Assembly (NCBI RefSeq): GCF_902702915.1
Contig: NZ_LR738849.1
Span: 558,001 to 622,000, forward strand
Direction of reading: 5' to 3'
Source of the DNA: Desulfovibrio sp. 86
Lineage (GTDB): Bacteria > Desulfobacterota > Desulfovibrionia > Desulfovibrionales > Desulfovibrionaceae
DNA: 64,000 bases
The position numbers and the translations under genes were made by a program. Below are positions 5,329 to 64,000 of this stretch, in pieces (position 1 is the stretch's first letter; every line of letters starts with the position of its first letter). Under the pieces are notes generated by a model. It had not been told where the DNA came from. It saw nothing but the letters and a program-made list of their open reading frames with translations, and made no database searches.

Positions 5329-5625
5329 GTGGAACTGGAATTCCGTTTTCGCAATAATGACATGGGAATGTTGTTCCCCACATTTCAGGAAAGGGTGAAC
5401 GCCATGCTGCCCGCCCAAAAGGCCGAGGCCGGAACCGAAGCATCCGCTGCGCCCGAGTTGAAGCCCCCGGTCACGGAAACGCCGCACATGCTCAACAATG
5501 AAGAAATGACCCAGGCCCTTGCCCAGGTGGAAGAAGAAGCCGCCCAGCACAGCCAGGAACTGATGCAGGCGCACTCCGGCCTCAATGAGCAGCGCGTGGC
5601 GCGGCTTCTGGGGCTGCTCGACTAG
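5329..5625 (+). CDS. Small hypothetical protein, acidic and coiled-coil-like
   Basis: A 98-residue protein that I do not recognise. The GTG at 5329 is chosen because AAGGAGA lies 6-7 bases before it; the frame is open further upstream but runs through the tandem duplication with no start signal. The start is VELEFRFRNND; the middle is Ala/Glu/Pro-rich; residues 55-98 are rich in Glu, Gln and Ala and probably helical. No signal peptide or membrane span is seen. Its TAG stop codon is also the first three bases of an interspersed repeat element. Confidence 0.65.
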   Translation: MELEFRFRNNDMGMLFPTFQERVNAMLPAQKAEAGTEASAAPELKPPVTETPHMLNNEEMTQALAQVEEEAAQHSQELMQAHSGLNEQRVARLLGLLD

Positions 5626-5823
5626 AGCGGATTCCCTTTGAGATGCTTCACATTTCAAAGGCAGTCTTGCTTAGAGCATTTTTACTTTGAAAAAGTGCAA
5701 ATGCTCTAACGCTGTACGAAAGTACAGCGCGCCACAACGTGGCGTGGATTCAGCCGGAAATCGCATTTTTCGGCTGAATGAAAACTTTGAAATGTGAAGC
5801 ATTTCAAAGTTAATCTGCTATAG
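5623..5823. repeat. Interspersed palindromic element, family I (copy 1)
   Basis: About 200 bases beginning TAGAGC and ending CTATAG. It holds several inverted repeats: a CGCTGTAC/GTACAGCG hairpin, a TTCAGCCG/CGGCTGAA pair around an AT-rich loop, and TTTGAAATG/CATTTCAAA. Related copies lie at 20375, 39992 and 50421 (the last one inverted). The first TAG is the stop codon of the upstream gene. Confidence 0.8.
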
Positions 5824-5856
5824 AAGTCCATTATTTTGACGGTGCGTTTCTCTTTG

Positions 5857-5926
5857 CCCAGAACGCAAGAACCGCCTTTGCCTCCCCTTTCGTACAGGAG
5901 AACAAAGGCGGTTCTTGCGTTCTGGG
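5857..5926. terminator. Long perfect hairpin between convergent genes
   Basis: A perfect 24-base inverted repeat starts CCCAGAACGCAAGAACCGCC, with a 22-base loop. It sits between the 5329 gene and the 3' end of the oppositely oriented exonuclease gene. Its position suggests a shared terminator, although there is no long T run on either side. Confidence 0.6.
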
Positions 5927-5953
5927 CGGTGTTATACGCCCTTGCGGGCAGCC

Positions 5954-6760
5954 CTACACCTCAAGGCTCAGGCCCACAGGGCAATGGTCCGAGCCGTACA
6001 CGTCCTGCTCGATCCAGGCGTCGCGGATGGCGGGCGCAAGCTCCTGCGACACGAAAAAGTAGTCAATGCGCCAGCCCACGTTCTTTTCGCGCGCTCGGCT
6101 CTTGTACGACCACCAAGAATAGTTGTCGGGCGCGTCGCCGTGCACATGACGGAACGTGTCCACATAGCCCATGGCAAGAAAACGATCCATAAAGGCCCGT
6201 TCTTCGGGCAGAAAGCCCGTATTTTTTTCATTCTGCCTGGGGCGGGCCAGATCAATGGGCCGGTGCGCGATGTTGAAATCGCCGCAGACCACAATGGGTT
6301 TTGTTTTACGGCATTCTTCGGCATAGGCCAGAAACGCCTCGAAATAGCCCATTTTGTAGGACACCCGCTTGAATGCGCCTGTGGGTTTGCCGTTTTCGTC
6401 CAGCTCTTCAGCGCCGCCGTTGGGGAAATAACCGTTAAAAAAATGAAATGCCGGGTATTCCAGATGCAGCAGACGCCCCTCACCCTGATATTCGGGCTGC
6501 GGCAGTTCCGCGCTGCACGACAAAAAAGGTCTGCGGCTGTATACGGCCACGCCGGAATAGCCCTTTTTTACACTGCTGGACGCCCAGCGGGATTCCCAGC
6601 CCGCAGGCTCGCGCACGGTCTCGTCCAGTTGTTCGGGGTGGGCCTTGGTTTCTTGCAGGGCCACCACATCCGCATCGGTCTGCGTGAACCAGTCCCATTC
6701 AGCCTTGGCGGATACCGCACGCAGGCCGTTGACGTTCCAGGATACAAGTTTGAACTGCAT
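5954..6760 (-). CDS. xthA: Exodeoxyribonuclease III
   Basis: A 268-residue AP endonuclease/3'-5' exonuclease of base-excision repair. Start at MQFKLVSWNVNGLRA, preceded by GGAGG at the proper distance; an upstream in-frame ATG gives five extra residues without a ribosome site. Family motifs: SWNVNGLRA (metal and DNA binding), ALQETKAH with the catalytic Glu, the Tyr/Asp region VCGDFNIAH, and the closing YGSDHCPVGLSL with the Asp-His pair. The length is typical. It is divergent from the IMP cyclohydrolase gene. Confidence 0.95.
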   Translation of the reverse strand: MQFKLVSWNVNGLRAVSAKAEWDWFTQTDADVVALQETKAHPEQLDETVREPAGWESRWASSSVKKGYSGVAVYSRRPFLSCSAELPQPEYQGEGRLLHLEYPAFHFFNGYFPNGGAEELDENGKPTGAFKRVSYKMGYFEAFLAYAEECRKTKPIVVCGDFNIAHRPIDLARPRQNEKNTGFLPEERAFMDRFLAMGYVDTFRHVHGDAPDNYSWWSYKSRAREKNVGWRIDYFFVSQELAPAIRDAWIEQDVYGSDHCPVGLSLEV

Positions 6761-54617: not shown

Positions 54618-55793
54618 TCAAAAAGATCTCCAGCGCAGCATCAACTGACCGAAAGCCGCCGCCACATCCGCATACATGGCTTCTGCGTCCGCACCAAAGC
54701 CGCGCTGTCGTTTGGCTGCGAGAATGAGCACCGCATGCAGCCCATATTCGGCGTAAAACGGCTTGGCAAAATACGAACGGATGCCCAGAGGGGCAAAAAG
54801 GGCCCAGTCAATGGATTTAACACTGTCGAGAGTATCTTCCACAATAAGCGAGCTGAGGCTGTAGCGCTGAATATCCTGTGCTATTGTGCCTTCATAGGCA
54901 TGCAGCATCCCCCACTCAAGGCTGTCGAACACCGAACCGACACCGTATACGGCCACACGCCCGCTGCCCATCTGAATATGCGACAGCATCAACCCGTCAA
55001 CTTCCGGCTCGCAGAGATTGTGCAGCTTTTCGAGCGCCGGGCGCAGTTCTTCAGTACAGATCGCCAACGCGCCGTCTTCTTCAAGCTTCGGGGGCCTTGC
55101 ATCAACGTTGACCAATGCAACCCGCACCACTTCCTTGCCCGACTCTCCCCACAAGGTGAGCCGCACATGGGCCGAAAACAAGCCCCGCTCGCCATTGCCG
55201 AGCAGCAGCTTTCCCGACCATGCGTCCCGCTCCACGGCCTTTTCCATTGCCGCTGAAAAACCTTTCATCAACGACTGCGGCACCACATCATCCAGCACCA
55301 GCGCCCGCTCTGACTGTTCCTCGCCCAAAAAGAGCGTCTGCGCCGCCTTGTTGGCGTCATACAGCGTCTGATTTTCCAGATCCACGGTAAATACCGGATA
55401 ATCTGCATCCCCCAGACGCATCTTCAACTGCGCGTTATAACAGGCGGAATTATATCCTCCAGGCAAATAGGCCTCTTTGAGAAGCCCGCTGTAGACGTCC
55501 TGCTCCGGTTGTGGCCAGCCCTGAAGGATCAGCGGCTTGCGTCCATCGTCATGCTTCAGCCGAAAGATTACGGCGGCTGGCCGCCCGGCATGGATCATGT
55601 CCCAGAACTCCACAAGCAGAGGATAATCCTGTTCCATTACCGCGTTCTTTCTGAACGCGGCGTTTTTCAGCAACTGCGGGGCGTCAAAGCCTGCGTCGCG
55701 CCAGCGGGTAAACACCTTGATCCGGGATTCACGCTGGCAGATGCTCCATAATAATCCGGGGAAGCCCTTTCGCCACTGCAGGAAACTTGCCAT
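54618..55793 (-). CDS. PAS/GAF-like sensory protein, no output domain
   Basis: A 391-residue cytoplasmic protein of uncertain family. Two regions have PAS-like features: about 50-100 (EFWDMIHAGRPAAVIFRL) and 130-235 (YPVFTVDLENQTLYDANKAAQTLFLGEE and SGKLLLGNGERG). The C-terminal 150 residues look GAF-like (EDTLDSVKSIDWALFAPLGI, then a span ending MYADVAAAFGQL). There is no kinase, HTH or cyclase output. It is divergent from the GntR gene and shares its operator-bearing intergenic region. Confidence 0.65.
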   Translation of the reverse strand: MASFLQWRKGFPGLLWSICQRESRIKVFTRWRDAGFDAPQLLKNAAFRKNAVMEQDYPLLVEFWDMIHAGRPAAVIFRLKHDDGRKPLILQGWPQPEQDVYSGLLKEAYLPGGYNSACYNAQLKMRLGDADYPVFTVDLENQTLYDANKAAQTLFLGEEQSERALVLDDVVPQSLMKGFSAAMEKAVERDAWSGKLLLGNGERGLFSAHVRLTLWGESGKEVVRVALVNVDARPPKLEEDGALAICTEELRPALEKLHNLCEPEVDGLMLSHIQMGSGRVAVYGVGSVFDSLEWGMLHAYEGTIAQDIQRYSLSSLIVEDTLDSVKSIDWALFAPLGIRSYFAKPFYAEYGLHAVLILAAKRQRGFGADAEAMYADVAAAFGQLMLRWRSF

Positions 55794-55885: not shown

Positions 55886-55898
55886 GTGGTCTGACCAC
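55886..55898. promoter_or_regulatory. GntR/FadR-type operator candidate 1
   Basis: GTGGTC-T-GACCAC is a perfect 13-base palindrome. It contains TGGTCTGACCA, which fits the TGGTCnGACCA core known for FadR and the wider TnGTnnnACnA pattern of the FadR subfamily. It is 93 bases upstream of the PAS-like gene. Confidence 0.6.
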
Positions 55899-55980
55899 TG
55901 ATACGCAACCCCGCGCTCCAGAGCATATTTGCCTCTATAATCTGCTTTTTTTCTGCAGTATTTTACAGCATGTTATACGG

Positions 55981-55991
55981 TGGTCATACCA
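55981..55991. promoter_or_regulatory. GntR/FadR-type operator candidate 2
   Basis: TGGTCATACCA is an inverted repeat TGGT/ACCA that fits the same pattern. It lies 142 bases before the gntR start codon and 45 bases after the nearby TATAAT. Confidence 0.55.
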
Positions 55992-56132
55992 AAAAATAAA
56001 AAATATTTCATCTTTTTCACTATATTAATCGATTGAGTACTTTTTTTTACAAGTCTGTTGTCAAAAAAATCGCAGACGCGCAGTATGAAGGTACACAAAC
56101 GCATTTGAACACGCTTTGTCTGGAGGACGCCC

Positions 56133-56777
56133 GTGATCGCGCCAGCAAACGCTGAAAACCAGTTGGAACACGCCCTGTTGCAGGGGCGCTGGACGCTCTT
56201 TGAGCGGTTGCCCGCCGAACGGCACCTGGCCGAAGAACTGGGCGTCAGCCGCGCAACGCTGCGCACCGCCCTGAGCACCCTGGTGGGCAAGGGAATTCTT
56301 GAAACGCGCCGCAGCAAGGGCACCTTTGTGCGCGCCCTCCCCTGCAACCCCAACGCAGCCAGCCTGGCCGACAGTCTGAAAGCCATGCGTATAGTCATGA
56401 CGCCCCTGCTTGCCGCGGCCTCAGGTTCATATGCGCCTTCTGTCATGCTGAAGCTCGAACGCCACCTGCCTTCCATTGGCATGGCGCTTCACAGTGGCGA
56501 CATGCGCCTTCTGGCGCAGCATCACCTGCGGTTTTTCTCCATACTTTTGCAGGCAATCAGCAACGACTGCCTTGCTCAGGCAGGAGCGGTCACCCTGCCC
56601 GATGCCTGCGCCCTTGCCCGGCTGTTGCAGGAATGCAGCCAGCCCCGGCTTGAGGAAATATTCAAGCATCTTGCCCGCACCCTGCATGGCCTGCGGCATG
56701 CGGACTCACAAGCCTGCGCTTCTTCTGTATCGGCCTATGTCACCTGCCTTTTGCAGTGCCTGGGGGAAGATGAATGA
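56133..56777 (+). CDS. GntR-family regulator, FadR-type
   Basis: A 214-residue regulator. The winged helix is seen in ERLPAERHLAEELGVSRATL and GKGILETRRSKGTFV; the C-terminal all-helical ligand domain (about 80-205) is of the FCD/FadR type, although the metal-binding His set is not clear. The GTG start follows CTGGAGG. It overlaps the next gene by ATGA, so it is the first gene of the operon and likely controls it. Confidence 0.9.
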   Translation: MIAPANAENQLEHALLQGRWTLFERLPAERHLAEELGVSRATLRTALSTLVGKGILETRRSKGTFVRALPCNPNAASLADSLKAMRIVMTPLLAAASGSYAPSVMLKLERHLPSIGMALHSGDMRLLAQHHLRFFSILLQAISNDCLAQAGAVTLPDACALARLLQECSQPRLEEIFKHLARTLHGLRHADSQACASSVSAYVTCLLQCLGEDE

Positions 56778-57046
56778 TGAACCGGCGGAGGCGCGATTTT
56801 TTACGGGGAAACTGGCGCGCGGTTTCCCCATGCAGACTCGGCGAAAACACCAATGCAGACGCGCTGGCCAGCGGCGACGAGGCGCTGCTGCCGCCAGAGT
56901 TTTCGCCGGGTATGCTGCGGCTTGAAGGGCAGCGACTGGGGCTGCCCGTGGATACGATGAGCGAGGAGGCGCTGATTCGGGCCGTTGCACAGGCCCTGCA
57001 CACGCAAGCGCGTCCCCCTGTGGAGATGGAAACCCCGCAACTTTGA
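56774..57046 (+). CDS. Small protein with RRDFLRG N-terminus
   Basis: A 90-residue protein starting MMNRRRRDFLRGNWR. The twin-Arg FLRG element resembles Tat signals or the start of NapF-type maturation proteins, but no hydrophobic stretch follows, so export is doubtful. The rest is acidic and helical (MSEEALIRAVAQALHTQA). The start overlaps the gntR stop, with GGGGAAG upstream. It could be a chaperone for the Tat substrate encoded two genes downstream or a remnant of a ferredoxin-type protein. Confidence 0.6.
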   Translation: MMNRRRRDFLRGNWRAVSPCRLGENTNADALASGDEALLPPEFSPGMLRLEGQRLGLPVDTMSEEALIRAVAQALHTQARPPVEMETPQL

Positions 57047-57056
57047 GGAGGGTTCG

Positions 57057-58460
57057 ATGGCTGACCACGACATTCCCTATCTTGAGGAGCGCAAGCTTAC
57101 CAAGCGGTGGCAGGGGCCCTGGCCTATATTGGCCAATATGGCGTTCACACTTTCCATATTTGCCGTAACCTGGTGGATTTTTCAGGATCCGCGCGGCATC
57201 ATGCGTTTTTACACACCCTATGTGGGGTATAACTATTGCCGCTGGTGGCTCATCATCCTCATCTGGATGGCCTATATTTTCGACTTCTGGCCATTCAAGC
57301 GCAACTGGATACGCAATGCGCATCCCCTGCAAAAGGGCCTTGTGCTTTCGCTTGTATCTGTTGGTTTGATGGTGGTGATGATCCACGGCTTTTTTGAAAG
57401 CGTCCTTGGCAATTTTGCATTTACCTATTTCAGCCCGCGCCAGTTGCAAAAGCTGCCAGGGCTCACCGAATTCTATTCCACCGAGTATGCGGCCCAGGCA
57501 TGCATGATGTTCGCCGTCATCGCTTCATGGATCAGCCCGGCCTGGATCGTGGCGCTTGAGGGCCGCCCCTGGCAGAATGAAGCCCAACCCGTCAAAGGTT
57601 TCAGCATATGGCTGGGCACGTTCTGCCTGAGCCTTATCATCTACTTTATGACCATGCACAACCACATGGGCATCCTGTATTACCCCTGGCAGTATTTTAC
57701 GGCAATTACCCCGCCTTACTGGGAATCCTTTGCGCAAACAGTTTCCGCGAACTTTCATGTAGCCTGGATCATGTGCTGCACCGTTGTGGTGTGGTTTATG
57801 GAAGGCATCTGGGAGCGTTACCCCTTCTGCCTCATCAAAAGGCCGGGCTTGCGCCGTTTTGCCCTGTTCTTCGGCATTATCGCCATTTCCCTCGCCCTGT
57901 GCTTCTTCTTCTGGTACATGCAGGAACTGGTCTGGGGCGACGCCATCCGTGGTCACCGGCGTGACGCGGCCCCCGACTGGCGCTGGCTGCATGTGGGCGA
58001 AACCGCCATCTTCTTCCTGGTTCCCGCCCTGTTCCTCCAGTTCTACGGCGGCAATTGGCCCAACAAGTTCAGCACGCCGGTCAATGTGCTTATCCGTACC
58101 GTGCTTGTGGCCATCGGCGGCATTGCGGTCTACTGCCTGTACTACAAGTACGCACACTTCGCGCTCGGCACGCAAAAAGGCTTTTCACATCCGCAACAGT
58201 TCCCGATGATTCCCATGATCTGGCTCATCGATATCTGGCTGATCAACTGGTGGTTTATGGACGGCTGGCCCGGCTGGAAGCGCGAATTCCGCACCAGCGA
58301 AGAACTTGTGGCCGAAGAACACGCCTTCGCCGCTCGAAGCGCCTGGAGCCCCGCCATGATTCCGGGTCTTGCGGTGGGGATTCTCGCTGGCGTTATGCTG
58401 TACTTTGCCATAGTGGCCGCGCTGCCATGGTTCAGCGCGCACTTCACCCTTGTGCAGTAA
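57057..58460 (+). CDS. Polytopic membrane protein of unknown family, about 11 TM
   Basis: A 467-residue integral membrane protein; GAGGAGGG precedes the ATG. About 11 hydrophobic spans are seen, the first at 27-43 and the last at 440-465. It is unusually rich in Trp, Tyr, Phe and His near the membrane (YNYCRWWLII, MTMHNHMGILYYPWQY, WLINWWFMDGWPGWKR), which suggests an aromatic or metal/quinone-handling pocket. I cannot assign it to a known transporter family. It is the gene just before the Tat-exported MBL hydrolase, with 10 bases between them. Confidence 0.8.
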   Translation: MADHDIPYLEERKLTKRWQGPWPILANMAFTLSIFAVTWWIFQDPRGIMRFYTPYVGYNYCRWWLIILIWMAYIFDFWPFKRNWIRNAHPLQKGLVLSLVSVGLMVVMIHGFFESVLGNFAFTYFSPRQLQKLPGLTEFYSTEYAAQACMMFAVIASWISPAWIVALEGRPWQNEAQPVKGFSIWLGTFCLSLIIYFMTMHNHMGILYYPWQYFTAITPPYWESFAQTVSANFHVAWIMCCTVVVWFMEGIWERYPFCLIKRPGLRRFALFFGIIAISLALCFFFWYMQELVWGDAIRGHRRDAAPDWRWLHVGETAIFFLVPALFLQFYGGNWPNKFSTPVNVLIRTVLVAIGGIAVYCLYYKYAHFALGTQKGFSHPQQFPMIPMIWLIDIWLINWWFMDGWPGWKREFRTSEELVAEEHAFAARSAWSPAMIPGLAVGILAGVMLYFAIVAALPWFSAHFTLVQ

Positions 58461-58470
58461 GGAGAGCAAC

Positions 58471-59619
58471 ATGGACAGACGAGACTTTATCAAGGGTGCG
58501 GCATTAGGGGTCGGCGTGGGCGCCATCGGCGCCATGGGCGCGTATTCATACTCCCCCATGCGCAGGACTTTTCTCAAGGACGTAAAACGCGGCACGGAAA
58601 ATATCGGCGTTTGCAAGGCCGTCAAAATTACCAACATCTCCGAGACAAGCTGGTTCGACAACGGCGCCTTCATGCAGGATGTGACCGGCGCTGGCGGCCT
58701 GCTGGTAGACCAGTACACCTTCAACTGGCCTCCTTTCGGCAACGGCAAGGGCGTCGGCAAGGGCAGCTATGCCGACGGCATAAAGCTGATCAAGCATCTG
58801 CTGCCCCACAAGCTGGACGAAGCCTGGCAGATCGCGCGCGAAAACAGCGTACACCCCGACAATGCCGGCGGCTTTTCCTGCCTTATTGAAATTGAGGGCA
58901 TGGACGGCAAGGTGACAAAATACCTTTTTGACACCGGCTGGAATTATCAGTGGATGGAAACCTGCTATAAGCGGGAAGGCATCGACACCATGCTGGCCAA
59001 TAATGAAATTGCCGCCATGATCCAGACGCACGAGCATATGGACCACTTTTTTGGCCTGCCCGCCGTGACAAAATACAACCCCGATATTCACATCTACACG
59101 CCCAACACCTTTTACCCCAGCGGCAAACAGTACCTCAAGGACTGCGGACACGTGGGCAAGTGGACCGAAGTGCCCAAGGGCCTGCACAAGATTCAGGACG
59201 GCGTGGCCCTGTACGGCTTCGACTGCCCCATCATTTTCAAGGTATTCGGAGAAATCTCGCTGTACTGCAACGTCAAGGACATTGGCCTCGTGAGCATCAC
59301 CGGGTGCTGCCACCAGGGCATCATTCTTTTTGCCGACACGGCCTACAAAACCCTGACCTATGAAAACGACCAGTTTTACGGCCTCTACGGCGGCCTGCAC
59401 ATCTCGCCCTTTGACGACTGGGACCCCAAGTATGACGACCTCGTTATCGGTCTCAAAAAATGGGATCTGCAAAAGGTGGGCTGCAACCACTGCACAGGGC
59501 TCATTACCGCCCAGAAGTTTGTGGACGCGGGCTACCCGGTTGTGAAAGGCACGGCGCGTTTCCGCTCCAAGACGACCAACTATCTTGGCAATGGAGACGT
59601 CATAAAGTTTCCCTCGTAA
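58471..59619 (+). CDS. Tat-exported MBL-fold metallohydrolase
   Basis: A 382-residue protein. A Tat signal (MDRRDFIKGAALGVGVGAIG) directs folded export. The MBL fold has the metal motif THEHMDH (His187, His189, Asp191, His192), with other likely ligands in TGCCHQGI and LHISPF. The layout resembles the MBL subgroup of ribofuranosylaminobenzene phosphate synthase-like proteins, but the substrate is unknown. Extra Cys (GCNHC, CHQ) may add metal sites. AAGGAGAG precedes the ATG. It ends in GNGDVIKFPS, a motif recurring in the next protein. Confidence 0.85.
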   Translation: MDRRDFIKGAALGVGVGAIGAMGAYSYSPMRRTFLKDVKRGTENIGVCKAVKITNISETSWFDNGAFMQDVTGAGGLLVDQYTFNWPPFGNGKGVGKGSYADGIKLIKHLLPHKLDEAWQIARENSVHPDNAGGFSCLIEIEGMDGKVTKYLFDTGWNYQWMETCYKREGIDTMLANNEIAAMIQTHEHMDHFFGLPAVTKYNPDIHIYTPNTFYPSGKQYLKDCGHVGKWTEVPKGLHKIQDGVALYGFDCPIIFKVFGEISLYCNVKDIGLVSITGCCHQGIILFADTAYKTLTYENDQFYGLYGGLHISPFDDWDPKYDDLVIGLKKWDLQKVGCNHCTGLITAQKFVDAGYPVVKGTARFRSKTTNYLGNGDVIKFPS

Positions 59620-59696
59620 ACGGCGCTGCCGGAAGGGGGCAGGTCTGCCCCCTTCCGGCTGGATTTCAAAAACCGCCACAACGATGGAGTATCCCC

Positions 59697-61538
59697 ATGC
59701 GCCTTGATGCCCTGCTGCCGCGCCCCCTTTCGCCTGAAACAGACGCCGAGAGCCCTTCCATACTCAACTGTCTGCTCACAGGCATACATCTTGACCGCAA
59801 GCGGGCGCGGAGGCTGGGGTGGCGGGGGGTGCACCCTTCCAACCAGCTTTATGCGGCCTGGACCTGCCGGGTGGCCGGTTCTCCACACGTGTACGGCTTG
59901 GTTTTTCTTAACGAAAGCACAGAGCGATCCTTTCTCCACGGCACGTTTACGGCGCACGTGTTCCCCCATGCGGCGGATTCCATTCTCGACAAATTCCCCT
60001 TGCAGGCTCTTTCCATTGCCCTTGGCGAGGACTACGAGGAGCGCATGCGCAATCTCTCGCTGCACGCCCCCGAGCTTGCCCCCTTCTGCATGGGCAGCCT
60101 GCAGCTTGTGACGGCCCTGGACGGCAAGGGGCTTGCCTTGTCCCTGTCCGCTCCGGCCAGATATTGCCACATTTCGCGTGAAGGGATCGCTGCGCGGCCC
60201 TTCCCGGATTCAGACAGTTGCGCTGCAGGCGACACGGCAGGCGACACGGCAGGCGAACGGTGGATTGTCCCCCCCGGCGGTGCGGAATGCGACGTTCCCG
60301 CATTCAGGCTGCTGCTGCCGCTCTTCACAACACTGGCGGATACGGCCGCAACAATGTTTGAGGAAAGGCCGCGCTTAAGCCTGCATATGGCCCCGCAAAA
60401 ACCGCGTGGCGCCGAAGGGGACGCCTCCCCCACCCTGTCGCTGAAGGCGGAGATGGGCGCATGCCCGCAACCGCGCCCCCTGACAGCTTTTCCCGGCAAT
60501 GGCAGACCCATAAAGTTTCCATCCCTGTCTTCCGAAGGCAAGGTTCTGGAGCGCCTGCCCGGCCGCCGCCGTCAAATTCCGGCGACACCTGGCGCTGATC
60601 TGCCGGTCATGCATATCCTCACCGGATTCCTTGGCGCGGGAAAGACCACATTTCTGCGCCGCTGGCTGGATTATCTCAATGGCCGCGAACAGTTCGCCGC
60701 GGTCATACAGAATGAATTCGGGCGCATCGGACTGGACGCCGTGCTCACTCGCGGTGAAACGCATGTGGAGGCCCTGGACGAAGGCTGCGTCTGCTGCTCG
60801 CTGGCGGACAGCTTGCGGCCCGGCCTGCAACGCCTTTTGGAAGCGGCCCCTGCGGAACAGATAATTCTTGAAACAACAGGATTGGCCAATCCGGCCAATG
60901 TGCTTGAATCCCTTTACGATCTTTCCGACATGGTGCGGCCGGGGCTGGTCATAACCGTGGCCGACGCCCTGGCATGGGACGAGGCAGGAGCAGGCATCAG
61001 CATGGCGCAGGTGGCGCAGGCCGACGTCATTATTGCCAACAAGGCCGACGCGGTCTCTGAACAGCGGCTTCAAACAGTGCTGTGCGACCTTCGACGCCGC
61101 AACCCCAGGGCTGTAATCTTCCCCGCTGTGGAGGGAAACATCACCTTCGCCAATCTTGAAGCGCTGCATACGGCATGGCTCGACGCCCACAGATCTCCGC
61201 CCTCACGCGCCCCCCGTCTGCAGCCATTCAGCGCTGCTGGCAATATCAACCACACCACCGAAGGATTTGGTTCATTTTGCCTCACCCTGCCGCAGGTGGT
61301 CAGCACAGAGGATATTTGGCGCATGGTGGACGGCGCTGGCCCGGGGCTTTGCCGCGCCAAGGGCATTGTCAATCTGCGCAGGGACGGAGCGGTGGTTGCC
61401 GCTGTTGCCCAGTACGCCGCCGGACGCCTGGAATTTGAGGAAGCCCCGGACGGAGCAGACGAACGGTACATGGTGTTTATCGGGGTGAACCTGTCGCCGC
61501 CTGACACGCCCGGGCAAGGAGCGTCAGCCGTGCGTTGA
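59697..61538 (+). CDS. CobW/COG0523 GTPase with long N-terminal domain
   Basis: A 613-residue protein. Residues 300-610 are a COG0523 metallochaperone GTPase: Walker A TGFLGAGKTT (309-318), the metal-binding CxCC in GCVCCSL (Cys364, 366, 367), NKAD and a C-terminal CobW domain ending ERYMVFIGVNL. The first 290 residues are a domain I do not recognise (WTCRVAGSPHVYGLVFLNES, HVFPHAADSILDKFPL). A GNGRPIKFPS segment (267-276) joins the parts. GGAG precedes the ATG. It should insert or deliver Zn, Co or Ni to a client, plausibly the MBL enzyme. Confidence 0.88.
   Translation: MRLDALLPRPLSPETDAESPSILNCLLTGIHLDRKRARRLGWRGVHPSNQLYAAWTCRVAGSPHVYGLVFLNESTERSFLHGTFTAHVFPHAADSILDKFPLQALSIALGEDYEERMRNLSLHAPELAPFCMGSLQLVTALDGKGLALSLSAPARYCHISREGIAARPFPDSDSCAAGDTAGDTAGERWIVPPGGAECDVPAFRLLLPLFTTLADTAATMFEERPRLSLHMAPQKPRGAEGDASPTLSLKAEMGACPQPRPLTAFPGNGRPIKFPSLSSEGKVLERLPGRRRQIPATPGADLPVMHILTGFLGAGKTTFLRRWLDYLNGREQFAAVIQNEFGRIGLDAVLTRGETHVEALDEGCVCCSLADSLRPGLQRLLEAAPAEQIILETTGLANPANVLESLYDLSDMVRPGLVITVADALAWDEAGAGISMAQVAQADVIIANKADAVSEQRLQTVLCDLRRRNPRAVIFPAVEGNITFANLEALHTAWLDAHRSPPSRAPRLQPFSAAGNINHTTEGFGSFCLTLPQVVSTEDIWRMVDGAGPGLCRAKGIVNLRRDGAVVAAVAQYAAGRLEFEEAPDGADERYMVFIGVNLSPPDTPGQGASAVR
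60225..60260. repeat. 12-bp x3 in-frame tandem repeat in the CobW gene
   Basis: Three units GCAGGCGACACG (the third with changes) encode Ala-Gly-Asp-Thr repeats in the unknown N-terminal domain. Confidence 0.85.
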
Positions 61539-61594
61539 CGGCAGAGACATCTTCCCCGGCGGCCGCGCCAGTGCCTGGAGCCCGCCCAAAACGC

Positions 61595-61750
61595 TTAAGG
61601 AAACGCTGAGTTATTCCGTTTGGCGGCGTTGCTTCACTTTTTTTGAAACAGCCGGGGATGGAAGAGTCCACTCCTGCTTCAAAAAAATCGCGCCTTGCCA
61701 AACAAAACAACTGCGTGTTTCCAACAGGCTCTTTAATCAATGTTTTCTTA
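61595..61750. repeat. Foldback MITE-like element (copy 2, inverted)
   Basis: The reverse complement of 9388-9546, starting TTAAGGAAACGCTGAGTTAT and ending TTTTCTTAA, with the same internal hairpins. It lies between the CobW gene and exbB, ending 45 bases before the exbB ATG. Confidence 0.85.
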
Positions 61751-61794
61751 ACCTGCCGGTTTCGTATGCCGGTTGTTGCAGCAAGGAGGCAGAC

Positions 61795-62391
61795 ATGAAC
61801 ATCATTGCTTTAGGGGGATGGATGATGTGGCCCCTGCTGGCAGTATCCATCCTGACCCTGACGGTGATTGTGGAGCGCCTGCTGCTGTACGCGTCGTGCT
61901 CCCTGCCCGACGACGCCCTGCGGGGAGATCTGCTCAAAGCCACGAGCAGCGGCGATGTGGAAACGGTGGCGGAGCGCATGGCCACAGTGCCCCTGCTGCA
62001 GGCCTTTGCCCAGCAACTCACAGCGGCAAGCCCCAACCGCGAATCATCCCTGCATCTGGCCGGAGGGCAGATTCTTGAACAGCTGGAGCGGCGGCTCGGT
62101 CTGCTCGGCGCCATTGCCAGGCTGGCCCCGCTCATGGGCCTGCTGGGAACGGTAAGCGGAATGATTTCCATTTTTTCCAGCATTGCGCACGCCTCCAGCG
62201 GCGTGGATATGAGCATGCTGGCGGACGGCATCTGGCAGGCCTTGCTCAACACGGCTTCCGGCCTGTGCATTGCCATTGTCGCCCAGTTTTCGCTGGCATT
62301 TTTTAGCGCCCGTCTCAAAAACATCTCCAGCATGCTTGATGCGGCAGGCAACGCGGCATTGCTGCAGCCTGACGCAGGCACTGCGTGCTGA
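61795..62391 (+). CDS. exbB: ExbB/TolQ/MotA-family proton channel
   Basis: A 198-residue membrane protein with three spans: 8-28, about 105-125 and 150-175. The conserved part LGLLGAIARLAPLMGLLGTVSGMI matches the pore-lining segment of ExbB/TolQ. It couples the proton gradient to TonB. AAGGAGG precedes the ATG. exbD follows only after an interspersed element. Confidence 0.9.
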   Translation: MNIIALGGWMMWPLLAVSILTLTVIVERLLLYASCSLPDDALRGDLLKATSSGDVETVAERMATVPLLQAFAQQLTAASPNRESSLHLAGGQILEQLERRLGLLGAIARLAPLMGLLGTVSGMISIFSSIAHASSGVDMSMLADGIWQALLNTASGLCIAIVAQFSLAFFSARLKNISSMLDAAGNAALLQPDAGTAC

Positions 62392-62437
62392 TTTTTATGC
62401 CATGACCAGCAGACGCAGTTTATCCAACGGGTTTCCT

Positions 62438-62589
62438 CTAGAGCGATTTCACTTTGAAATTGCTCTGGCGGCTGCGCGAGTAGACGCCCGCCGCGGAGGC
62501 GCAAGCGCAATTTATTTGCGCTGTCACACGCCGAAGTGGGCGTCTTGGAAGCATTGAGAATGGATATTCTCAATGCGAAAATGCTATAG
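62438..62589. repeat. Interspersed element, family III (copy 3)
   Basis: About 150 bases starting CTAGAGCGATTTCACTTTG and ending GCTATAG, very close to 10401-10551 except in the GCGCGCCAACGCGGG segment. It fills most of the gap between exbB and exbD. Confidence 0.88.
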
Positions 62590-62605
62590 TTGCGCCAAGG
62601 AGACA

Positions 62606-63034
62606 ATGCCGATGCTTCGCCTGACCCGTCCACTGAATACGGCCTGTGATTACGACCTCATACCGCTCATTGATATGCTGTTTATTCTGCTTATATTTTT
62701 TGTCATTGCGGCGGCCTTTGCCGTCCGTGGGCTGGAAGTCGATCTGCCCACCGCCCACAGCAGCAAAACCCTGTCGGGCCGGGTAATTGAACTGCGCCTC
62801 ACGGCTGACGGCGGCATTCTTTGCGAAGGGGCGCCCCTGCCCCGGCAGGAGGTCAGAGACAAATTGCACGATCTTGTGCTCGGCTTCAGGAGCAGGCCGG
62901 GAAGGCTCGTTCTGGTGGCTGACCCCAAGGCTCCTGTGGAAGGACTCATCTTTCTTGTGGATGAAGTGCGCATGCAGGGCGGGGAAAAGCTGCTTATCGC
63001 CACATCGGGGCAACCCGCGACGGACGCGCCATGA
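62606..63034 (+). CDS. exbD: ExbD/TolR-family protein
   Basis: A 142-residue protein with one N-terminal span. The motif DLIPLIDMLFILLIFFVIA contains the essential membrane Asp; the periplasmic domain has LVADPKAPVEGLIFLVDEVR. CAAGGAGA lies before the ATG. Its stop overlaps the tonB start (ATGA). Confidence 0.92.
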   Translation: MPMLRLTRPLNTACDYDLIPLIDMLFILLIFFVIAAAFAVRGLEVDLPTAHSSKTLSGRVIELRLTADGGILCEGAPLPRQEVRDKLHDLVLGFRSRPGRLVLVADPKAPVEGLIFLVDEVRMQGGEKLLIATSGQPATDAP

Positions 63035-63546
63035 CTGCGACCGAGCGGCTCTACGCCGCACTGGCCATCTCATGCCTCGTGCACTGGGGCCTTTTTCACC
63101 TGCTCGGCGCATCGGCAGAGTTGACCCCCGTGGGGACGCTCACGGTGATCAGCATGGATTCCCTGGGCTTGGGAGCATCCCCGGAGGGCGGCGCAGGCAT
63201 CAGTATGGAGGCTGCCCCACCCCGCACCGAACCGCAAAATACTGCGGACAAAAGGCGTCAGGCATTTTTCGCCTTTCTTGACGATCTTGACGCGGCAGTG
63301 CATGCCCACCGCATGGACGGCGGCGAGGCACATTTTGTCGGAGTTGCGGCCTATGCCTTCACCGTGCGCGCCGACGGCAGTTTTACAGCCCCGGTGCTGC
63401 GCCAGTCGTCAGGTTCACCAGAGCTTGATGCGGCGGCGCGCCGTGCGATCCTTGCGGCAAGCGGCAGTGTGAAACGCCCGGACATTCTGGGCGCTGCCGA
63501 TATTCCAGTGCTATTGCACGTAAAATACCAGTACGAACTGCGGTAA
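63031..63546 (+). CDS. tonB: Short TonB-like protein
   Basis: A 171-residue energy transducer. The N-terminal anchor has the SxxxH motif (SCLVHW) needed for coupling to ExbBD. The C-terminal domain (about 95-171) is TonB-like: AYAFTVRADGSFTAPVLRQSSG, then LDAAARRAILAAS. The Pro-rich linker is much shorter than in E. coli TonB, so its reach across the periplasm is small. A TolA-like role is less likely given the small size. Confidence 0.87.
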   Translation: MTATERLYAALAISCLVHWGLFHLLGASAELTPVGTLTVISMDSLGLGASPEGGAGISMEAAPPRTEPQNTADKRRQAFFAFLDDLDAAVHAHRMDGGEAHFVGVAAYAFTVRADGSFTAPVLRQSSGSPELDAAARRAILAASGSVKRPDILGAADIPVLLHVKYQYELR

Positions 63547-63663: not shown

Positions 63664-64000
63664 CTACTGCCTGTCGCGCAGCATCTTCAGTTTGGAGCCG
63701 CTGAACCTGTCGCCGTCAGGCAGCTTCATGTGGTCAAGGCCCCGTACCACCACCTTGCGGTAAAACTCGTTGCCCGCAGCGACAACCTCGGGGATGGAGT
63801 AATAGTCCTGTTTGTCAATGCGGAAAGAAAGTTCCAGCGCCAAGGGCGCACCGCCCCAGGAGTCCGTCCAGGCCTCAAACGTGATCTCTGCCGCAATCCC
63901 CGCCAGTTTCACTGAACCCATCATGGCCGAATAGGTGCAGACGCTCACGGGCGTAAGCACTGTGTCGGCGGCAAGACCGCTCCTGGCCAGCGCAGGCACA
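63664..64000 (-). CDS. Unidentified protein, 3' part only
   Basis: The frame is open to the right edge of the window and stops at 63664. The visible 112 residues have alternating strands (VCTYSAMMGSVKLAGIAAEI, ALELSFRIDKQDYYSIPEV) and end KLKMLRDRQ. I do not recognise the family. It is convergent with tonB. Confidence 0.5.
   Translation of the reverse strand, partial: VPALARSGLAADTVLTPVSVCTYSAMMGSVKLAGIAAEITFEAWTDSWGGAPLALELSFRIDKQDYYSIPEVVAAGNEFYRKVVVRGLDHMKLPDGDRFSGSKLKMLRDRQ

Follow-up and report, generated by a model that had tools for sequence, protein, structure and literature searches.

A conserved gene block in Desulfovibrio sp. 86 joins a membrane protein outside known families to a Tat-exported metallo-beta-lactamase-fold protein and a CobW GTPase with an additional N-terminal domain

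We analysed a window of 64,000 nucleotides from Desulfovibrio sp. 86 (bases 558001-622000 of the closed contig NZ_LR738849.1, 3.46 Mb). Near its end lies a block encoding a GntR-family regulator, a small arginine-rich protein, a membrane protein (hereafter MEM), a metallo-beta-lactamase-fold protein (MBL) with a signal for export by twin-arginine translocation (Tat), a CobW/COG0523 GTPase and an ExbB/ExbD/TonB complex. An earlier note, made from the sequence alone, had proposed that these eight co-directional genes form a single undescribed system. All eight are present and intact on the + strand, and the tight spacing that it described in the first half is found there: the regulator and small-protein genes overlap by 4 nt, and gaps of 10 nt separate the small-protein gene from MEM and MEM from MBL. 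The gap between cobW and exbB is 256 nt. A palindrome, TGGTCTGACCA, begins at 55887, the note's start coordinate; the divergent PAS/GAF-like gene before it, which the note omitted, is part of the conserved neighbourhood (50 loci). The features are as follows.

54618..55793, - strand: divergent PAS/GAF-like sensor gene, 391 aa; weak PAS_4 match, homologues in 50/81 loci
55887..55897: operator-like palindrome TGGTCTGACCA, site 1; the TGG-N5-CCA form recurs upstream of GntR
55981..55991: operator-like palindrome TGGTCATACCA, site 2; 94 bp from site 1, paired spacing conserved
56133..56777, + strand: GntR-family regulator (PF00392)
56774..57046, + strand: small RRxF (Arg-rich) protein; recurrent open reading frame (ORF) without Pfam or NCBIfam match
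57057..58460, + strand: MEM, predicted 11-transmembrane protein; five hairpin repeats and one C-terminal helix
58471..59619, + strand: MBL, Tat-exported, metallo-beta-lactamase fold, COG1237-like (Tat signal and profile matches)
59697..60596, + strand: N-terminal domain of the CobW protein (N-domain), putatively client-recognising; AlphaFold2 model, standalone in type II loci
60609..61538, + strand: CobW/COG0523 G3E GTPase domain with GCxCC motif, and CobW_C (PF02492, PF07683)
61795..62391, + strand: ExbB-like proton-channel subunit (PF01618, 84.7 bits, over cut-off)
62573..63034, + strand: ExbD-like subunit (PF02472, 75.3 bits, over cut-off)
63031..63546, + strand: short TonB-like protein, 171 aa (TIGR01352, 28.8 bits; cut-off 27.1)

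The likely start of cobW is 59697, and the open frame itself extends further upstream.

MEM was used to scan 84,980 species genomes, which yielded 118 relatives; 80 of these were kept for locus analysis, and locus counts out of 81 include the window. Within the genome collection, Desulfovibrio sp. MES5 is the nearest relative, with a MEM that is 99% identical. Nearly all of the 80 loci on a long enough contig keep the order MEM, MBL, N-domain-CobW (tblastn), and the gap between MEM and MBL is 8-73 nt in 80/80. Gene-call clustering placed MEM in 81 loci, MBL in 79, CobW in 69, the PAS-like protein in 50 and GntR in 47, followed by ExbD (31), ExbB (30) and TonB (29); no further family reached a comparable frequency. 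Of 199 genomes in the family to which the window belongs, 53 have MEM, 53 MBL and 54 the N-domain, with all three in 51 and any of them in 56, so that the three genes, whose co-occurrence the note had left to be checked, are nearly inseparable (hypergeometric p ~1e-45 for MEM and MBL, a value that is optimistic given the relatedness of the genomes).

This adjacency of MEM, MBL and CobW persists across phyla. The hosts belong to Thermodesulfobacteriota, alpha- and beta-proteobacteria, Campylobacterota, Deferribacterota and others, and include gut Desulfovibrio, Bilophila, Mailhella, Sutterella and Parasutterella as well as marine anaerobes. The MEM tree intermixes phyla, with Sutterellaceae among gut Desulfovibrionaceae and alphaproteobacteria among Pseudodesulfovibrio, and the block is missing from many close relatives of its carriers, which means that the module moves horizontally. 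Some genomes (G178, G151, G185) hold two copies, and no MEM homologue of type I (the window's type) or type III (a distant type introduced below) was found on the plasmids searched. The block is thus conserved as one unit, and a search limited to open literature turned up no description of a system with this set of genes; a term search of Haas 2009 (PMC2770081), which treats Zur-regulated COG0523 clusters, gave no mention of lactamase, TonB or Desulfovibrio. The CobW, MBL and TonB domains of the gene set belong to known superfamilies, and MEM, the N-domain and the RRxF protein match no library searched.

MEM is unusually well conserved. In an alignment of 67 sequences the others are 58-90% identical to the window protein, with more than 100 invariant columns, among them His, Glu, Asp, Gln and Trp residues, and type I proteins of different phyla are still ~60% identical. 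The 11 transmembrane segments claimed for it agree with the AlphaFold2 model built from this alignment, which has 11 long helices (pLDDT 83). From the charges of the loops the N-terminus would lie inside and the C-terminus outside, a topology that would place H312xxE315 and other conserved His, Asp and Gln residues on the periplasmic face. The window protein has no sequence match in Pfam, NCBIfam or the PDB; scattered weak Pfam matches occur in some members, the best being Ureide_permease at 2e-4. Searching the model by fold with Foldseek gave nothing at E<=0.001. In a VIA-align comparison the best natural protein reached Z 4.7, with no natural match above background, and the designed helical barrel 8qkd reached Z 8.8 (root mean square deviation 5.8, 234 residues aligned).

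Distant homologues of MEM, grouped as types II and III, were reached by a phylum-wide profile search, and the profile of the most distant group recovers type I with E of 1e-7 to 1e-12. H312 and E315 are retained across types I, II and III. Aligned to itself, the joint profile of the three types gives off-diagonal matches at shifts of ~70, 160, 245 and 322 residues; the best has E 1.7e-7 and scores 64.7, where the best of 20 locally shuffled profiles scores 28.7 and the reversed profile 28.8. MEM is thus built from a unit of P-x-x-G, helix, periplasmic loop, helix and W-P-F that occurs five times, and type I has an eleventh helix in addition. The same test on type I alone, whose alignment is too shallow, was negative.

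MBL carries a Tat signal at residues 2-21 (TIGR01409, 22.2 bits; cut-off 16.7). Its score against Pfam Lactamase_B, 21.8 bits, falls just below the gathering cut-off of 22.7, and profile searches match it to the COG1237-type proteins 7dck (E 7e-15), 2p4z and 3h3e, with which it shares HxHxDH, TGCxHxGI-like and NHCTG-like motifs over ~200 aligned residues. The set of metal ligands, H187, H189, D191, H192, H281, H310 and H340, is complete and invariant. Unlike the COG1237-type proteins, MBL is exported by Tat, has ~140 additional N-terminal residues and has a genetically fixed membrane partner.

Three side observations concern relatives of MBL or its neighbours. A lone Tat-exported relative (L141:8136-9149) lies beside an MFS permease, near an apparent formate dehydrogenase cluster. 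In genome G030 (L140:72-2690), UPF0261, PEP_hydrolase-like and Peripla_BP_4 genes and one for a small secreted protein precede an MBL homologue inside which the contig ends, a context that hints at catabolic uptake. In some Desulfobacteraceae-type loci a small secreted or lipoprotein-like family without Pfam match is inserted between MBL and CobW (L108:11262-12401, L066:3723-4325, L064:5240-5701).

The CobW protein matches PF02492 (121.2 bits; cut-off 20.7) and PF07683 (32.8 bits; cut-off 22), domains found together in 64/64 members, and GCxCC is kept in all CobW proteins, with C364, C366 and C367 invariant. It scores far below the equivalog cut-offs for CobW (101.6 vs 332.1 bits) and ZigA (80.8 vs 600 bits). 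The usual COG0523 layout puts the GTPase domain at the N-terminus; here it begins after ~300 unmatched residues, which makes the protein a variant of the COG0523 GTPases and not a standard member. This leading N-domain (residues 1-300), which the note had called novel, has no sequence relatives in Pfam or the PDB. Its AlphaFold2 model is mostly above pLDDT 90, and in a fold search with the whole protein the matches listed all fall on the GTPase part. The protein thus shares with the COG0523/G3E metallochaperones (CobW, ZigA, Nha3) the P-loop G domain, GCxCC, CobW_C and, in several members, a His-rich loop, and differs from them in the N-domain and in having an exported MBL protein as its candidate client. 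Nha3 is co-encoded with its metalloenzyme, nitrile hydratase (PMC9164220). This pair, and HypB with hydrogenase (a functional analogy, not membership), resemble the module in that a GTPase metallochaperone is dedicated to one co-encoded enzyme; the module departs from both in the enzyme fold, in Tat export and in a membrane protein without known family.

The loci of the distant MEM homologues bear on what the N-domain may do. Type II loci (L102-L107) encode MBL, MEM and an N-domain that stands alone, 310-360 residues long and with no GTPase, and in several cases also an RRxFF protein; in the three examined, the C-terminal tails of this N-domain are Cys/His-rich (e.g. HFHHGDRYVCSCFHDH). In type III loci (L109-L116) the MEM homologue has ~420-450 residues, and MBL and the N-domain are both absent. 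The N-domain is therefore inherited with MBL and not with MEM, and has metal-binding features whether the GTPase is there or not. That it follows the MBL gene even without a GTPase domain, and is missing where MEM lacks MBL, fits the note's claim that MBL is the client of the GTPase, and is the main argument for reading the N-domain as the client-recognition part. The same distribution bears on an alternative in which MEM itself is the metalloenzyme, its periplasmic-face metal site loaded with the help of CobW, with MBL in the role of an accessory or a second catalytic subunit. The cross-phylum conservation of MEM with its invariant residues, the retention of H312 and E315 in all three types and the strict adjacency of MEM and MBL would suit it; the N-domain and CobW are missing where the MEM homologue has no MBL partner, and the metal would have to be inserted into a membrane protein from the cytosol. 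We consider this alternative unlikely.

Type III is an unannotated family of membrane proteins of ~430 residues in Thermodesulfobacteriota (L109:4652-5944, L111, L113, L114, L116), with strong profile matches in 12/297 genomes of the phylum. Its neighbours encode CoA transferase in three loci, AMP-binding (acyl-CoA) synthetase in one and methylmalonyl-CoA mutase in two, and also include acyl-CoA dehydrogenase and Fe-S protein genes.

The window GntR protein matches PF00392 (65 bits; cut-off 27), and its FCD score (17 bits) lies below the cut-off of 24.3. The consensus of FadR-type operators is TnGTnnnACnA, and the two intergenic palindromes (TGGTnnnACCA), 94 bp apart, fit it. Upstream of GntR, most of 43 loci carry TGG-N5-CCA, with 78 sites across 17.2 kb there and 99 across 414 kb of background; the sites lie at the same place across phyla, and their paired spacing is conserved among relatives. 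TGGTnnnACCA occurs 26 times in the window genome, fewer than in a backward-read control (57), and a close pair of such sites is found only at the module operon. None of the genome's three TonB-dependent receptor genes has an operator-like site close upstream. With the pair confined to the block, the inducing signal is probably a small molecule specific to it. The arrangement resembles FCD/FadR-type GntR operons in the regulator gene standing first and in the paired TnGTnnnACnA-like sites upstream, and differs in the C-terminal domain scoring below the FCD cut-off and in the uncharacterised block controlled. The PAS/GAF-like gene usually lies directly upstream of GntR (its homologue in L053 weakly matches PAS_3 and GAF_2), and in Campylobacterota a histidine kinase and a response regulator replace the PAS and GntR genes. 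The small protein, which has an equivalent in 51/81 loci and in several type II loci, begins with a twin-arginine-like RRxF without the hydrophobic stretch and ends with a conserved LxxEAxRLGLDP-type motif.

Many MBL-fold enzymes hydrolyse toxic or signalling compounds. Combined with inducible control by GntR or a two-component system and with the patchy, horizontally spread distribution, this would suit a role in envelope detoxification or signal quenching, where MBL would hydrolyse a toxic or signalling lactone, phosphodiester or thioester at the membrane and MEM would be its anchor or exporter. The PADLOC defence models match none of six proteins, MEM is conserved far beyond the needs of an anchor and it has no efflux-type family match. 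Such a role appears very improbable.

The ExbB/ExbD/TonB genes, which the note had called dedicated, are recurrently attached to the block. Outside the window the exbB gene abuts or overlaps cobW in many loci; the start of ExbB overlaps the stop of CobW in 15/32 loci, indicating that the energy complex belongs to the operon where it is present and is often translationally coupled to cobW; in the window, no terminator was found on the + strand of the 256-nt gap. The complex has the three subunits of ExbB-ExbD-TonB systems in their usual order, and differs from these in being joined to a metallohydrolase block, in its short TonB and in having no linked receptor. Three other genes of the ExbB/TolQ/MotA family lie elsewhere in the window genome. 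More than half of the loci have no adjacent ExbB/ExbD/TonB, and on the MEM tree the adjacency changes 11 times, strongly clustered and mainly in two clades, some apparent losses being truncated contigs. The note had expected a TonB-dependent receptor just beyond position 64000; there is none within 10 kb past the operon, nor was any found by tblastn in the flanks of ExbB-bearing loci. Three metagenome-assembled genomes (MAGs) with the TonB version have no receptor match at all, with the caveat that MAGs are incomplete. Outer-membrane import, part of the pathway that the note inferred, is therefore unlikely to be the core function; we suggest, weakly, that the complex may serve an unlinked receptor.

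COG0523 proteins and TonB systems are often linked to metals, and the note accordingly proposed a metal or cofactor uptake pathway, in which a TonB-powered system would import a metal complex, MBL process it, MEM pass it and the GTPase deliver the metal. The recurrent linkage of ExbB/ExbD/TonB agrees with this, as do nickel-pincer genes near type II loci in two or three cases: LarB/C/E within a few kb in L102 (1652-4404), LarC nearby in L142 (15130-15999) and, next to MBL in L104, a gene resembling LarA (5367-6758), with LarC assigned by Pfam and LarE and LarB by reading. LarC is near-universal in the family (179/199 genomes), hence uninformative, and the flanks of type I loci showed no Lar homologue, which leaves the nickel-pincer link a lead only. 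The proposal is further weakened by the many loci without the energy complex, by the missing receptors, by a regulator of GntR and not of Zur/Fur/NikR type, and by a search of six loci that gave no riboswitch. We regard it as distinctly unlikely.

Two further gene contexts were seen downstream of TonB. In three Mailhella loci (L013, L015, L016) a Tat-signal-like calcineurin-type phosphoesterase is encoded ~1 kb after it. Beyond the window of Desulfovibrio sp. 86 (L007:10961-13489, window ~64961-67489) lie genes for a 2-hydroxycarboxylate transporter and a citrate lyase ligase, the apparent start of a citrate lyase cluster that is partly common to MES5 only.

The reading that we prefer, at a little under an even chance, is that of a horizontally spread, GntR-controlled envelope module built around a periplasmic metallohydrolase and its own metallochaperone. 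Apo-MBL would fold in the cytoplasm, where it would be recognised by the N-domain of the CobW protein, perhaps together with the RRxF protein at the Tat leader of MBL, and would receive its metal from the GTPase part. Loading by CobW in the cytoplasm before export, the step we think somewhat more probable than its opposite, would explain the use of Tat. Loaded and folded, MBL would leave by Tat and dock at the periplasmic face of MEM, there hydrolysing a periplasmic substrate whose product MEM would bind or pass inward. The product would probably be a small carboxylate, since type III homologues adjoin CoA transferases and an acyl-CoA synthetase; the passage through MEM of a small acid that MBL releases is a tentative proposal, which we would sooner doubt than assert. 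Where present, mainly in two lineages, the dedicated ExbB/ExbD/TonB would power entry through the outer membrane via a receptor encoded elsewhere.

Several observations weigh against this module reading. The periplasmic placement of the MEM residues derives from AlphaFold2 helices and the positive-inside rule, with no solved structure; the idea of carboxylate transport draws solely on the neighbours of distant homologues; and none of the genes in the block codes for a cytosolic enzyme that would act on a product. The block has no linked receptor gene; the genome's three receptors lie at 0.90, 2.76 and 2.79 Mb, 0.3-2.2 Mb away. The MBL homologue of L141 occurs without MEM or N-domain, and G126, a genome of the same genus that is 100% complete, keeps an N-domain-CobW gene (L101:8329-10374) without MEM or MBL match, an orphan chaperone that may be a relic or serve a different client. 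In G057 the N-domain-CobW gene is truncated.

The clients of most COG0523 GTPases are stated to be an open question (PMC9164220). Here, one COG0523 subfamily comes with a fixed candidate client and a separate candidate client-binding domain, and the natural N-domain variants without GTPase make client recognition and metal loading before Tat export directly testable. MEM, for its part, defines an unannotated superfamily of membrane proteins. A bolder proposal, which we hold to be rather unlikely, is that MEM together with MBL makes up a metalloenzyme complex embedded in the membrane, with a new-fold, pseudo-five-fold membrane subunit, matured before Tat export by a client-recognising COG0523 GTPase, and that type III acts in the acyl-CoA/carboxylate metabolism of anaerobes. 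If true, the MEM-MBL complex would be of a kind previously unseen, and type III would represent an unrecognised acyl-CoA/carboxylate step in anaerobes.

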